Shown here in pieces: positions 52,940-59,332 of a stretch of 64,000 nt of DNA. Source of the DNA: Balamuthia mandrillaris. Its lineage: Eukaryota; Discosea; Longamoebia; Balamuthiidae. Positions within the stretch are counted from its first letter, which is position 1. The number at the start of each line of letters is the position of its first letter. Under the pieces are notes generated by a model. It saw nothing but the letters and a program-made list of their open reading frames with translations, was not told where the DNA came from and ran no database searches. The stretch lies in the NCBI GenBank assembly GCA_031835245.1, contig JAVKOQ010000031.1:124001-188000 (forward strand), read 5' to 3'. The position numbers and the translations under genes are program-made.

Positions 52940-54931
52940 ATGGAGTTCTTCGGGTTTGCAGCGCCGAAGGCCAAGGTGGTGGTGTGGCGCTCTTCCTTTG
53001 AGCACCCAAACTCGTGTCACAAAGCGCTCGTTCAAACGCACTGGTTTAATTACAAGGTGAAGATCACGTTTCAAATCGATCCAGTTTGTTTGTTCGATTT
53101 TATCTCGCTCACTCCCTGTTTTTTTCTTCTTCTGCTGTCGTTCTCGCAGGTGGAAGTCTTTTTTCCTTCGCCTGTGGTAAGCAGATCAGAAGAAGAATTG
53201 GAAGAAGAAGAGCAACAGAGCCAAAGCGACAGGGCAAAGAAACGGAAGGCCATCGAGGAGAACGCAGACTTTATTAGCGTGGCCGACAGTTCGGAGGAAG
53301 AAGAAGAAGCGGAAGGGAGCTCCTCCACAAACGCAAAGGACGATACAAAAGACACCTATCATCACGACCCTGTCCACCAGCTTCTCTCTTCTTTCTCTCC
53401 CTACAGTGAAGGTAGTTTCTTCTCTCGTCTCTCGTCTCTCGTCTCTTTTCTGTTCCTTCTCCTCTTCTATGCTATCCCCTCTCTTATCTCGAAAAAATAT
53501 CCACAACAGAGTCTTCGCCCAACGACATCTTTTACTTTTTGCCAAACTGTTCTCTTTCACGACTGCTGGAGCCCTCCTTTCTCAACGCTCACGTTCGCCA
53601 AGGAGAGCTTCGTGCGATATCCATCGGCTCTCGTATCGATGCACAGAACGTATGTGCCATTCTGCCTAACGGCAAAATGTTGCTCTCTCTCGACAAAGAC
53701 ACGTACGAGCAATTGGGTTTGACAGGAAGGAAAGCCGCCTTTCCTCCTCGACATTCCCAGGAGTGGGGTAAATCTCTTGCCTCTCTTTTCTTCTTTGTAT
53801 TGTTGTTTATCTAATGCTGCCTTTCTTTTAAAAAACTGTAAAAAGATGTAAGCTTAGATTTACGTGCTGCTTCATTTCGACCAGGCAAAAACCTGTACGA
53901 CCGTGTAAAGTGGTGCTTAGGAGAGGATCGCCTTGCTGGTATTGATTTGTTGTTAGCGTGGTGCCCTCAACTAGGTTTGTTTATTCTCTTTTATGTTTCA
54001 TTCTCGTCCGTCGTTTCTCTTTCCCTATTTGCAACTTGCTTACTTTCATTGTTGTAGGCTCTGCTCCGGCAGAGATGACGTTTCCAGAAGAAGTGCAGCA
54101 CAAACAACTGCGGTTAAAGTCTGAACAACACTTTTTCAAGAGCATCCGAGTGCCGATTTTGGAGCAGCGCGTACTGGATGAAGCTCTGATCTACGAGACG
54201 GATCATCGTCGTCGTCACAAGAAACAAAAAGACAAAAAGAATCACAACAACAAAGGAAAGAGTGGTGCAACAAATGCAAAGAAAAAAGATAAAGAGAAAG
54301 CAGACAAGGAAGGGGTGTCAGAAAAAGAAGAGAAAGAAGAGGAGGAAGAGGAAGATGTGTTAAAGACAGAGCTAACAAAGCAAGACAAAGCCGGTGCGGA
54401 CACGGAACAACTCAAAGGTAAACTCGCGGAAACAGGACAACTCTTCCTCCTCGAATTGTACGAATGCATTGGCATGATTTCTTCCAGGGCAGAAACGTAC
54501 TATTCTCTCCTCTTCTCTTTCCTCCGCTATCTCTCTCGTTATGAAACCGCCAACCCTAACTCTCATTTCCAAAACAATCAAGTCTTTCATCACCGAATGG
54601 CATGCTCTCACCTTCCTCCGACTCCCCCTTCACCTTCACCTACCTGAACGAGTTCTACGAGGCCTCTCGCGGCTACTCCTTCTCCTGGCGCGGCCTCCTC
54701 CTCCCTCACCACATCACCCAATGCTTGAACCTCGCCAGAAAGCACGTCCGCGAGGGGATCGTCCCTTTTGCCATTGTGTCCGTTTGGGGCTTCCAGGACA
54801 GCCCGGTCTCTTGGGGCAAACATCAACACTCGTTCCTCTACGGCGGCGAGAACGACTACACGTTCGTGGTGCTCCCGCATGAGCAGTACCTGCTCTACCT
54901 CGCCACCGGAACGTTTGATACGTTCTCTTGA
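52940..54931 (+). CDS. RPP40: RNase P/MRP subunit RPP40-like
   Basis: Six exons (52940-53056, 53150-53411, 53510-53767, 53885-53974, 54058-54496, 54583-54931) give 504 residues. The conserved C-terminal block VWGFQDSPVSWGKHQHSF, then GGENDYTFVV, matches the RPP40 signature; other family-like stretches are FLLELYECIGMISSRAE and RVKWCLGEDRLAGIDLLLAW. RPP40 is a protein subunit of nuclear RNase P and RNase MRP, which process tRNA and rRNA precursors. Two charged low-complexity insertions (about residues 50-100 and 270-330) make it longer than the human protein. The last junction was set by phase and restores the signature. Confidence 0.85.
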
Positions 54932-55161: not shown

Positions 55162-58100
55162 ATGCAGGAAGCTGAAGACGTTGTTCTGTCGTTAGGGATT
55201 TCTACGAATGGAGAAAGTTGTGCAAAACTCTATAGAAGCAAGACGCCTCCTCCTGCAAGTCCAAGCCACAAAGAGAAACGTATCTTAGCATCTCCGACGA
55301 AACGGAACTCTGCAGTTCGACTGGCCACAAAGGTAACCCAACGGAGAAAACATCAAAAAGCCAACGAGTCGAATGATTTAGAAGATAAAGCCAACAGCTC
55401 CATTGGTGAAGAAAAGCAGACGGTAATATCTAACGAAAGAAACGACGTCCCGAAGGAAGAAGATGCAAGGGCCAAGTTAACGAATGGAGGAAGGTTCTGT
55501 ACAGATGTAAATGTGGTTAGAGCCGTTTTGCTTCGTTCGAGGATGCAACTGGTTACACAGTTGTGCCGAAGAACAGATGCAGAGGAAGTCTCGGTGCTTG
55601 CAAAACTCTTGGTTACCGTGTTTGAGCATAACGGATATATCATGCAGTTAATGGAGTGGGCCATTGGTTATGAAGTCTCTGCCTCAGGTTTTGTTCTGTC
55701 TTTTAAGTTTTTCGGTGGTTTTTATCTGCTAACTTCTGTCTTCCAACAGTGGATCCAGACACTCTTCTTCGAGAAGATAGCCTTCCAAACCAACTTTTGG
55801 CTCAATACTTTGTTTTAGTGGGAGCGGACTATTTGAGGAGCACACTTCGTGGGGAGATAGCTAAAGTGCTGCGCAGTCCTCCAAACAGCGACCGAAAGGT
55901 GCGCGATGCTGCCTCTTCGTTTCTAAAAGAGATATGCAACTCCGTTGCCATATGCCCTCCGTACGTTACAACAACTGGTGTTTTTGCAATATGTGTTTTT
56001 TGCGTTGACAAAGTATTTTTCCAACAGCGAAATAACATATTTATGCCACATGTTGGGCAAAACCATCAACCAACGGTTCTCATGGTACAACACATCCTCC
56101 GTTGTGGGAAGCTTCTTTATGCTGCGTTTCATATGCCCTGCGCTCGTTTCTCCAGATAGAATTGGTTTTATTGAGGATCAAGGTAACGCTTCCTTCTGTG
56201 CCTTTCGCATCAGGACACTTCCCTTTCTCCCTTGTACTTTCTTTGTTTCCTCATTCACTTTTGAGCGTTTAATTCTTATCTGACATGTCCGTTCTCTCCA
56301 ACAGCAGGCAAGCAGTTGGCATCAGAAGTGTACAGAGGATTGGTTGCTGTAGCAAAGCTATTGCAAGCCCTAGCAAACCCGGATGAGATACAACAGCAGA
56401 CTGAGCAACAAGTACTGTCCAAATGGGATCAGTTTCTCAACTCTAAGAAACCGAACTACACCCAATTCATTACCGCCATAATCTCCATGGTGCGTTGCCC
56501 GCTTTTCCTGCTTAACTTTGCCTTTCTGTCTCTTATGTATTCGCTTTACAGAGCCCAAGATTGATGAAGGGTGAGCATTTTGCTTCAAGCCATACCCTCG
56601 TAAGCAAGGAAGAAGAGGTGGCTGCCCTGAAGTTATTACAAGAGCTCGTCATTGCTACCGACCAGAGAGAACGGGAAAAGAACGAGGAAAGAACTACTGC
56701 AAAGCTGAACTCTTGCTCCTCTTCCGCCTCATCTTCTCTGCCTTATGCAGCGGCAGAAACGATTTTCATCTATGAAGAAACAGAAGATAAAGAAGTTGGA
56801 GAAGGCGACCAACAACACACAGACGAAAAGCAAGAAAATAAGAGCCTTGTTTCTGGGTGTGTGGTTTTGCCAGAGCGATACAAGTCCGTTTTCAGCAACG
56901 CAGAAAAGGCTGTTCTTTATTGCTACAAACGGCTGAAACAGGACCGACAACAAAGCATCATTCTCTTTTCCAACAATCGAAAAGAAAAGAATCCAACATC
57001 ACCAGCAAAAATGTCGCCAACTCCTGAAGAACAAGCAACTACTTCTCAAACCGTTTCTTCCACAAAACTTTCCCCAGTTGGTCAGGAAAGAAGTTCCCCA
57101 GCATTTGTTCGTGAACGTTTTCTTCTCCTCAGCGACTCGTTGTCAGACATTCTGTTTGGGGTACTGAGAGGTTATTTCTCTGCTGCCCCTTCTGCCGCTC
57201 TTAAAACCACCGTTTCGCTAGAAGAAGTTTCAGCCCAAATCGCATCCGACCTGCTCTATGACATTGCTCACAGTATTGGCAAGAATGATTCTAGGTTCGT
57301 TAACATTTTGTTTGCAGTTTGTGTTTGTCATCGTTGCTGGTTTAAGTCCTTTTCTTTTGTCACTTTTGCACAGAATGTTTAGAGGAGGAATGGGATTAGA
57401 TACGCCAGCCTTCAACCTGGCAGTGGGGATGACCAACATAGCCACAATGGGATGGGGGAGAGTTCATATTCTCCCTGAAAGCAACTTGGACCAACGTGAC
57501 AACAACTTTTTTATCCTGGGCCGCTTCGAGCACAGTTTTGAAGCCCACTGCAAAACGAACGGGGTGGATAATGTACTAGAAGGAGATGTACGCAAGAGCA
57601 ACAGACAGCCTGTGTGTATAATGACTGGAGGTTATTTGAGCGGATGGTGCGAAGAGAGTTTAGGCGTGGAGCTGTTGAGCGCGGAGATAAGGTGTAGAAG
57701 AAGAGGGGACGGGGAGTGTTGCTTCATCATTGCACCTCCCAACATGATCAAGCAGCACATTAAAGCGATTCTGTTTCCTATTGACGAAGATGGAATCATC
57801 GTTCCAAGCGAAGAAGAAGATGTTGATGGTAAAATGGATGGAGCAGAAACAGAAAGGATGGACATGGAGAACACAGAACTGCCTTGTTCCTCAAAGAATG
57901 AAAGGAGATTCTCTAGTCCTCTATGTACGTTGGCCGTAGTTTCTGGGATTCGCAAAGAGAGAAACTAACATCCTCACTCTCGTACTTGTGTAGGCCAAAG
58001 AATTAGCAGATTGTTTATTAACTCTCTGCACGGGCCTGATGTAGTAACCAACAAAGGAGGAACGATTTCTTCCCTCTCCCACTTAGACCGATCACGTTAT

Positions 58101-59332
58101 CTCACGAGCATTCTTCCTTCAGGCTCCTCTTTTGTCTCTTCCTCTTCTTCTTCTTCTTCTTCTTCACAAGAAAGTATCAGAAAGTTATTCTCAGATGTTC
58201 GACATCATCATTCTTCAGGAACTTTGCTACTGTCAAATGGCAACGACAGAGCCATTCTAGTACGATCCAAAGCCTTCTCTTTGGGTATTTTCGCTGTATT
58301 GCAAGCCCTTTTGAAGGATTTCGGAACTCCTGCAGCTTTCTCAAAGAATACACTTTCAACGAACAATTCTATCCAAGTACAATCGACAATAGCAGAAAAC
58401 AAGACAGAAGCAGAGGTGGATGAAACAAATGTACATGCGGGTGAGACAAGAGGAGTGGGGAAGAGAGGCATAGGCAAGAAACAAGAGAAGAGCATGATGA
58501 AATGACCCAGAAGCAACACTCCGTGTGTGTCCGGGTATTACCTACGGCTTATTTCCTCTTCACTTCCAAATTATTGTTCGACGTGGCACATGCTTTGGCT
58601 GCAAAAGATGTTCGTTTGATGCTTTCAGATAGTTCCTCTTCTTCTTCTTCAAACATTTCTTCGACAATCACAAGGAAAGAAGCAACGACCGCTTTCGCTG
58701 CATTTCTCTTTCATCGTGGATGGAGCAGAGTGCAACCAAATCCGCTATCATCTGGTGAGGAGGGAGCCGCTATCGCTGCTCAAGACTTTTACTTGTTCTT
58801 TGATGCATTTCACAGTTTTGAAGTTGAACATTCTGGTAACGCCTTCCGTTGAGTTTCTCTTTATTCTTTATTGTTAACGGAATGTGAACAGGAGAGAAAC
58901 GGAGGATTGATAAGAACGCGGAGGAAGCGGAGAGCACTGTGTGCTTCATGCATGCTGGCTATTGTAGCGGTTGGTGGAGCACCGTCTTCGGAGTACCGAT
59001 GGCTACCGTTGAAGTTTCTTGTTGTGCGGTGGGCGCTCCCTCCAACGATGGATGTTGCAGGGTACCCTTGTTCTTCTTTTTATCTTCTTTCTCTTGCTTT
59101 ACTTCTCTCTTGTTTCAGTAGTGGCTAACGTTACAAACAAAAGTTCATATGTGCACCTACTCACATGGTAAAGCATTACGTCGATACGTTCATGATGGCA
59201 CAACGAAGAGAAGATCAACTATCAACCCTCTCTACGTTGCGTTTCTATGATAGCTCTTCAAATGAGCACGACGGGTCTTATTGTCATCATAGCAGAGCTT
59301 GGATGCACGATATGTTTCTCCAAAGCAAATAA
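55162..59332 (+). CDS. RasGAP fused to two V4R-like (phenol-sensor-type) zinc modules
   Basis: Ten exons (55162-55687, 55750-55960, 56028-56182, 56305-56489, 56552-57294, 57374-57924, 57994-58430, 58511-58835, 58892-59061, 59144-59332) give 1163 residues in this model. Residues about 115-400 are a RasGAP domain: arginine finger in TLLREDSLPNQLLAQYF (Arg183) and the hallmark FFMLRFICPALVSP near 270-285, so it should speed GTP hydrolysis by a Ras-like GTPase. After a charged linker come two related modules at about 547-745 and 945-1125. Each has a helix (SDLLYDIAHSIGKNDSRMF; SKLLFDVAHALAAKDVRLML), a GY.SGW turn and a Cys/Glu zinc-site pattern. The first site is Cys688, Glu711, Cys714, Cys722; the second Cys1062, Glu1085, Cys1088, Cys1099/1100. 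That pattern matches V4R domains of bacterial DmpR/XylR/MopR. The upstream frame to 55051 is open but lacks a Met, so a short 5' exon is possible. Confidence 0.82.

Follow-up and report, generated by a model that had tools for sequence, protein, structure and literature searches.

The gene at positions 55162-59332

The window, a stretch of 64,000 nucleotides forming part of contig C30 in the 64.8-Mb Balamuthia mandrillaris assembly, carries on its forward strand, at positions 55162-59332, a gene in which a Ras GTPase-activating protein (RasGAP) domain is joined to a sensor module of the V4R kind, with a second such module lying directly downstream. The gene model was rebuilt here from the window DNA. 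Exons 1-7 are joined by six GT-AG introns, and the identical six introns yield the NCBI protein P0001 (Balamuthia mandrillaris, 960 residues, RasGAP plus V4R), whose residues are the same as those of the rebuilt model through position 936; after this point P0001 continues to a stop codon at 58505, so that the greater part of the second V4R is not included. A longer version of 1163 residues, one among several possible models of the gene, takes in the second module. Exon 1 (55162-55687), a GT-AG exon found unchanged in P0001, holds the start codon, the N-terminal region and the start of the RasGAP domain.

The RasGAP domain covers residues ~127-359 (55540-56489, exons 1-4 with three introns) and is recognised in the 1163-residue model by PF00616 at 1.4e-22, with 81 bits against a Pfam cut-off of 28.3. 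Matches in the PDB were neurofibromin (5.9e-16 over residues 127-359) and p120GAP (8.5e-12), and the RasGAP chains among these matches were named neurofibromin, p120GAP, IQGAP and SynGAP. Arg183 (codon 55770-55772) aligns with the arginine finger in TLFRGNSL of neurofibromin; MLRFICPALVSP, the FLR-type motif (FMLRF) of the window protein, likewise aligns to neurofibromin, and the segment FMLRFICPALVSP (from residue 276, 56116-56154), which contains the FLR/PAxVSP motif of RasGAPs, aligns to neurofibromin FLRFINPAIVSP. The earlier note had proposed a RasGAP with an Arg183 finger at this locus, and this is confirmed, both Arg183 and the FMLRF motif being at the places it gave: the product is, from its sequence, a RasGAP with a catalytic arginine, predicted to stimulate GTP hydrolysis and so to switch Ras off.

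Exon 5 is an unbroken run from the linker behind the RasGAP domain into the first V4R. This V4R is preceded by a predicted pre-sensor helix, LPERYKSVFSNAEKAVLYCYKRL (56858-56940, ends approximate), which matches the pattern VP..AE..V..YF of relatives carrying a Ras guanine nucleotide exchange factor (RasGEF) domain and, by eye, also resembles prokaryotic sensors. The first sensor module (residues 547-740, 57113-57773) is encoded by exons 5 and 6 around an intron at 57295-57373, and was identified by Pfam V4R together with its identity to the prokaryotic sequences P0008 and L048. In the 1163-residue model V4R (PF02830) scores 2e-10 and 41 bits over two stretches (Pfam cut-off 31), the second of them, on 58888-59121, giving 3.3e-6 and 27.5 bits. 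RasGAP and V4R are the sole Pfam matches up to E 1, and no AAA+ sigma54 or DNA-binding domain was found in the window protein.

The second module is divided by the stop codon. Exon 7 (57994-58505, its 3' end unsettled) encodes a linker and the N-terminal helix of the module, while the remaining exons (approximately 58511-58835, 58892-59061 and 59144-59332, within 58511-59332) contain the V4R match and lie 3' of the stop, with an uncertain join to exon 7. Splice signals were scored against 28 supported introns from this gene and three relatives, in which donors score 3.0-10.8 and acceptors 0.8-12.0. The best in-frame introns bridging to the second module reach summed scores of only 6.2, 5.5 and 5.1; the best bridge that keeps all of exon 7 to 58430 sums to 4.9 and gives 1162 residues, and the exact 1163-residue join is not among the ten best-scoring bridges, the tenth of which scores 2.1. 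The second module is thus joined through weak splice signals alone, and it is omitted from the NCBI model. The NCBI end at 58505 and the poor bridges would also fit a decaying gene or a pair of adjacent genes: RasGAP and one V4R would then make up a gene ending at 58505, and the second V4R would be either a remnant or a gene by itself. We consider this unlikely, given that the second module begins, with its first helix, ahead of the stop and that four RasGEF relatives, P0003-P0006, contain two V4R stretches each in their NCBI models; it would in any case leave the fusion of RasGAP with the first V4R untouched. Since no bridge scores like the supported introns, we regard the RasGAP-first V4R fusion as firm at the sequence level, and membership of the second module in the same protein as no more than likely. 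Of the continuous 1163-residue model proposed earlier, the first join holds and the second is probable.

Immediately upstream, a neighbouring gene on the same strand (53946-54931) looks by its Pfam match (5e-21, over 54560-54931) like Rpp40, a subunit of ribonuclease P.

Relatives, zinc site and pocket of the sensor module

Nine Balamuthia modules, combined into a profile more sensitive than Pfam V4R, matched the PDB chains of MopR (7.8e-16), CapR/DmpR (2.4e-13) and PoxR (3.5e-12), and MopR was matched over profile positions 34-175, reaching past the 62-position Pfam V4R core. By this comparison of sequences the window module is homologous to the sensor of MopR, DmpR and PoxR and belongs to the XylR_N-V4R type. 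A profile of five module pairs returned, after the Balamuthia proteins themselves, the prokaryotic proteins P0008-P0012 at 8.4e-51 to 6.0e-45. In P0008, P0010, P0011 and P0012 histidine kinase, GGDEF or PAS/GAF/STAS domains come after the V4R, and by eye these four proteins also have a pre-sensor helix resembling the amoeba one, which lies inside the P0006-P0008 alignment. The first module of the window is 38% identical to P0008 over 195 residues and 40% identical to L048 over 174 columns. A scan of prokaryotic genomes, which relied on two short peptide patterns from a prokaryotic alignment and yielded a partial list, found at least 12 loci, including Desulfuromonadales, Methanosarcinales, Methanophagales archaea, Rhodocyclales and several Bacteroidota; a genome scan with one exon of the window gave no match. 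Nine of the prokaryotic frames were scanned for domains, and V4R was present in all nine and XylR_N in eight (at 0.001), histidine kinase domains being present in six of the frames and PAS, GAF or STAS domains in the remaining three. Close module relatives are seen on Methanosarcinales and Methanophagales archaeal contigs (L046, L047) besides bacterial ones. The earlier note compared the module with the DmpR-type activators; the closest sensor sequences found outside Balamuthia are instead these prokaryotic XylR_N-V4R signalling proteins (P0008-P0012, L045-L054), namely sensor kinases and PAS/GGDEF-type proteins.

The surroundings of these relatives bear on a second explanation, in which the V4R pair serves as a dimerisation scaffold, or a scaffold that holds membrane or lipid, like the TRAPP subunit Bet3, and senses no changing ligand. 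Bet3, a homologue of V4R, is active as a homo- or heterodimer (PMC2253512), and the pocket residues of the Balamuthia modules are highly variable, as a scaffold could allow. However, the nearest prokaryotic relatives are fused to signalling domains in all nine frames scanned as well as in P0008 and P0010-P0012; the module profile matches the archaeal V4R protein MJ1460 at just 0.12, as against 3.5e-12 or better for MopR, DmpR and PoxR; and no Bet3 chain is present among the five PDB matches up to E 1. We therefore judge a pure scaffold to be unlikely.

In the first module, Cys688 (57615-57617), Glu711 (57684-57686), Cys714 (57693-57695) and Cys722 (57717-57719) align with the MopR zinc ligands Cys155, Glu178, Cys181 and Cys189, with the same spacing of 23, 3 and 8. 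Both the residues named in the earlier note and the MopR positions it gave proved right, the latter by the PDB chain. The second module has the same zinc ligands, but four additional residues stand ahead of its last Cys. The comparison was extended to 23 Balamuthia modules from 12 of the 13 loci described below, some of them joined across introns by eye. By alignment the Cys155 and Cys181 positions are kept in 23/23 modules, Glu178 in 22/23 and Cys189 in all 22 in which the position is present; the exceptions are one Gln replacing Glu and one position lost at a sequence end.

Such conservation raises a third explanation, namely that the Cys-zinc site itself is the sensor and that its oxidation or loss of metal alters GAP or GEF activity, as in archaeal MsvR. 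The module cysteines are almost invariant, the NCBIfam model of MsvR matches five of nine modules (best 1.1e-6), although the first module of the window scores 17.2 bits against a curated cut-off of 220, and the NCBIfam model of the phenol regulator MobR matches seven of nine (best 9.7e-6). MsvR is described as redox-sensitive and modulated by cysteines in PMC3729527. On the other hand, the zinc of MopR and DmpR, for which one Glu and three Cys serve as ligands, is termed structural in PMC7264223 and PMC10715001, and the spacing and the Glu are matched here, leaving a redox or metal sensor distinctly improbable.

The pocket itself departs from that of the phenol sensors. In MopR, His106 and Trp134 anchor the phenol hydroxyl, the zinc ligands being three Cys and one Glu (PMC10715001, which also lists the other residues of the pocket). 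DmpR has the same zinc and anchoring arrangement, and in XylR, which senses toluene and xylene, Tyr takes the place of the His (PMC7264223). The His/Trp dyad is found in none of the 23 Balamuthia modules by alignment: in the window its positions hold Ile and Phe in the first module and Leu and Ala in the second, and a phenol-type pocket, as in the sensors to which the earlier note pointed, is not supported. All 12 aligned prokaryotic relatives have Phe and His there, as do the first modules of both RasGAPs on contig C94. Because the MopR dyad is missing from all 23 modules, phenol itself is probably not the ligand, though some other hydrophobic molecule may be. At thirteen pocket positions 4 of 296 residues are charged, compared with 566 of 2527 elsewhere, and none of 5000 random column draws was equally low. 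This low charge fits a nonpolar cavity for another ligand, but would equally fit any buried core.

A family of sensor-bearing Ras regulators in Balamuthia

The earlier note dealt with this one RasGAP, which is not the only Ras regulator of its kind in the genome. A six-frame Pfam V4R search of the genome gave nine matches, and a search with a prokaryotic module gave 38, which fall into 13 loci with apparent second copies at five further places; the grouping was made by hand and the match counts are lower bounds, so that there are at least 13 loci. Seven of these carry a RasGEF, four a RasGAP (the window included) and two no recognised enzyme. Two modules are present at 12 loci; in the NCBI model at C14, which we infer to be the home of P0007, the second module is present as its first part only. 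RasGEF and V4R lie on the same strand 1.1-2.6 kb apart on C18 (three genes), C55, C54, C14 and C126. The NCBI proteins P0003-P0007 have RasGEF matches of 1e-51 or better, and the middle gene on C18 reaches 2.5e-51 from crude exon joins. V4R scores above the cut-off in P0003 and P0004, below it in P0005 and P0006, and weakly (0.02) in P0007; NCBI names for these proteins (for example 'Rap guanine nucleotide exchange factor 4' and 'bud5') leave the sensor unmentioned. The RasGAP relatives are two adjacent genes on C94 and one on C143 (RasGAP at 1.8e-15, 8.6e-18 and 1.8e-7 from crude exon joins), with modules that rest on the prokaryotic-query matches of 3.0e-18, 4.8e-15 and 2.2e-13.

With RasGAP or RasGEF beside V4R at 11 loci on eight contigs, and with exon 5 continuous across the join in the window, an assembly or annotation artefact is barely credible, and chance is very unlikely because the arrangement recurs at other loci.

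Several further features of the family and its genome could be seen. The genome is rich in Ras regulators, with exon-level matches numbering 109 for RasGAP and 188 for RasGEF, a total that includes some duplicate copies from other contigs. On C233 (L039, 47500-57000) a V4R pair is followed by a long C-terminal region, and a very similar copy exists on C571 (L044); a PP2C-type phosphatase was suspected by eye in this region, and Pfam gave no match up to E 10. On C10 (L079, 287000-296900) a V4R pair is preceded by a long N-terminal region in a protein that shows no known enzyme domain and may be a regulatory partner. By eye, the C94 and C143 RasGAPs (L077, L080) have a break in the reading frame behind a G-R/K-x-D helix in each of their two modules, as does the first module of the window at about the same place, hinting at an intron that predates the tandem duplication.

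Origin, proposed mechanism and comparison with known systems

We favour, as rather probable, the reading that the gene encodes a RasGAP with an XylR_N-V4R sensor half, that the module was captured from a prokaryote, duplicated and shuffled, and that a ligand would gate the GAP activity. To place the modules, a tree was inferred from 34 of them (23 from Balamuthia and 11 prokaryotic), omitting L045 (start not recognised), L053, L055 and L056 (these three partial or short), P0009, P0010, the middle C18 gene and the far outgroups MopR and DmpR. The Balamuthia modules were split from those of the prokaryotes with support of 96/93. The 11 second modules grouped together whatever their enzyme (92/84, in 94% of 200 bootstrap trees, a moderate support), a single clade of all RasGAP-borne modules was rejected (p 0.019), and the two modules of the window as sisters were not rejected (p 0.118). 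Since the second modules cluster irrespective of the enzyme, the pair seems to have moved between enzymes as a unit, and the simplest reading of the tree would be one capture, a tandem duplication, and then exchange of the pair among Ras enzymes.

A number of observations weigh against this reading, in addition to the weak join and the missing dyad discussed above. Taken separately, the two V4R stretches score 27.2 and 27.5 bits, below the cut-off, and P0001, in which one module is complete, reaches 25 bits, while PF02830 is entered in its record nonetheless; the RasGAP exons on C94 and C143 have Pfam V4R scores of 0 to 22 bits, again below it, and the protein searches returned no NCBI protein for these three genes. 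Of the domains that the earlier note named for a search, RasGAP and V4R were recovered (the latter with both modules together), whereas XylR_N had no Pfam match in the 1163-residue model up to E 1; it matched two of nine Balamuthia modules (best 8.7e-4), and a genome search with the Pfam model was silent, as it was in 14 control genomes, so that absence is unproven. The Acanthamoeba RasGAP relative P0002 has no V4R by Pfam up to E 10, in a model that is possibly truncated. In the tree, first modules as one clade were rejected (p 0.048), the second-module clade falls outside the strongly supported class, and many branches are long, so that any order of the duplication and shuffling events is tentative. 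The three protein searches, each scoring the 8000 candidates that shared most words within a length window, returned Balamuthia proteins, P0002 and P0008-P0012 alone, which does not imply absence elsewhere.

Under the favoured reading of a captured sensor, the module would have been acquired from a prokaryote and then duplicated in the Balamuthia lineage, and the duplicated pair would have moved between Ras-activating and Ras-inactivating enzymes. The modules may form dimers that hold a small nonpolar ligand next to the structural zinc, and the ligand-induced change may travel via the helices that flank the modules, raising or lowering GAP activity. We propose this coupling onto RasGAP and RasGEF along the lines of one put forward for DmpR, in which phenol binding is proposed to move, within an intertwined dimer, the sensor's final helix and the linker that follows it (PMC7264223); by this analogy, a ligand may gate the GAP or GEF. 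The same or related chemicals could then act directly in the cytosol, raising or lowering Ras activity through GEFs and GAPs. More tentatively still, and with slightly less than even confidence, we suggest that a prokaryotic chemoreceptor has been doubled and wired to both arms of Ras control; the RasGEFs and RasGAPs would then themselves be chemoreceptors inside the cell, and small hydrophobic or aromatic compounds, such as those of bacterial prey, would set the level of Ras-GTP without a membrane receptor or G protein.

The predicted protein P0001 and its two Pfam domains are already public, and RasGAP and V4R are each known; it is their combination, on both sides of the Ras switch, that appears undescribed. 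In the open-access literature no paper was found on V4R together with RasGAP or RasGEF, on '4-vinyl reductase' with amoeba, or on a V4R sensor with 'hydrocarbon binding', and a haptophyte paper that pairs V4R with Acanthamoeba was set aside, V4R being part of a primer name there. A Blastocystis review also mentions V4R and Acanthamoeba, and a paper on insulin in Acanthamoeba mentions Balamuthia mandrillaris and RasGEF. The earlier note's remark that no such RasGAP is described agrees with these literature searches, but the gene is neither unpredicted nor alone: NCBI predicts it, and by our count it is one of four RasGAPs that, with seven RasGEFs, bear such sensors. Should the proposal be true, a prokaryote-type ligand sensor on both the on and off enzymes would represent a new coupling of chemistry to Ras, in a free-living amoeba able to infect people; it would offer a directly testable example of a eukaryotic signalling pathway that has captured a sensor, as well as a natural design for Ras switches under small-molecule control.

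Known Ras regulators take proteins, lipids, calcium or cyclic AMP as their inputs. Neurofibromin and p120GAP share with the window protein a RasGAP domain with an arginine finger and an FLR-type motif, and carry regulatory domains other than V4R. The TRAPP Bet3 family, which comprises eukaryotic relatives of V4R (PMC2253512), acts in vesicle tethering and not on Ras. The NtrC-type activators MopR, DmpR (CapR) and PoxR have a homologous module with the same zinc ligands, spaced as in the first module, at 20-25% identity; the window modules lack the His/Trp dyad and are accompanied by no AAA+ or DNA-binding match. The prokaryotic XylR_N-V4R proteins have a single V4R stretch in each protein scanned, together with bacterial signalling domains and no Ras regulators. 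The Balamuthia RasGEF-V4R proteins P0003-P0007, finally, have the same kind of sensor and the same pre-sensor helix as the window protein, but carry the opposite enzyme, predicted to load Ras with GTP.

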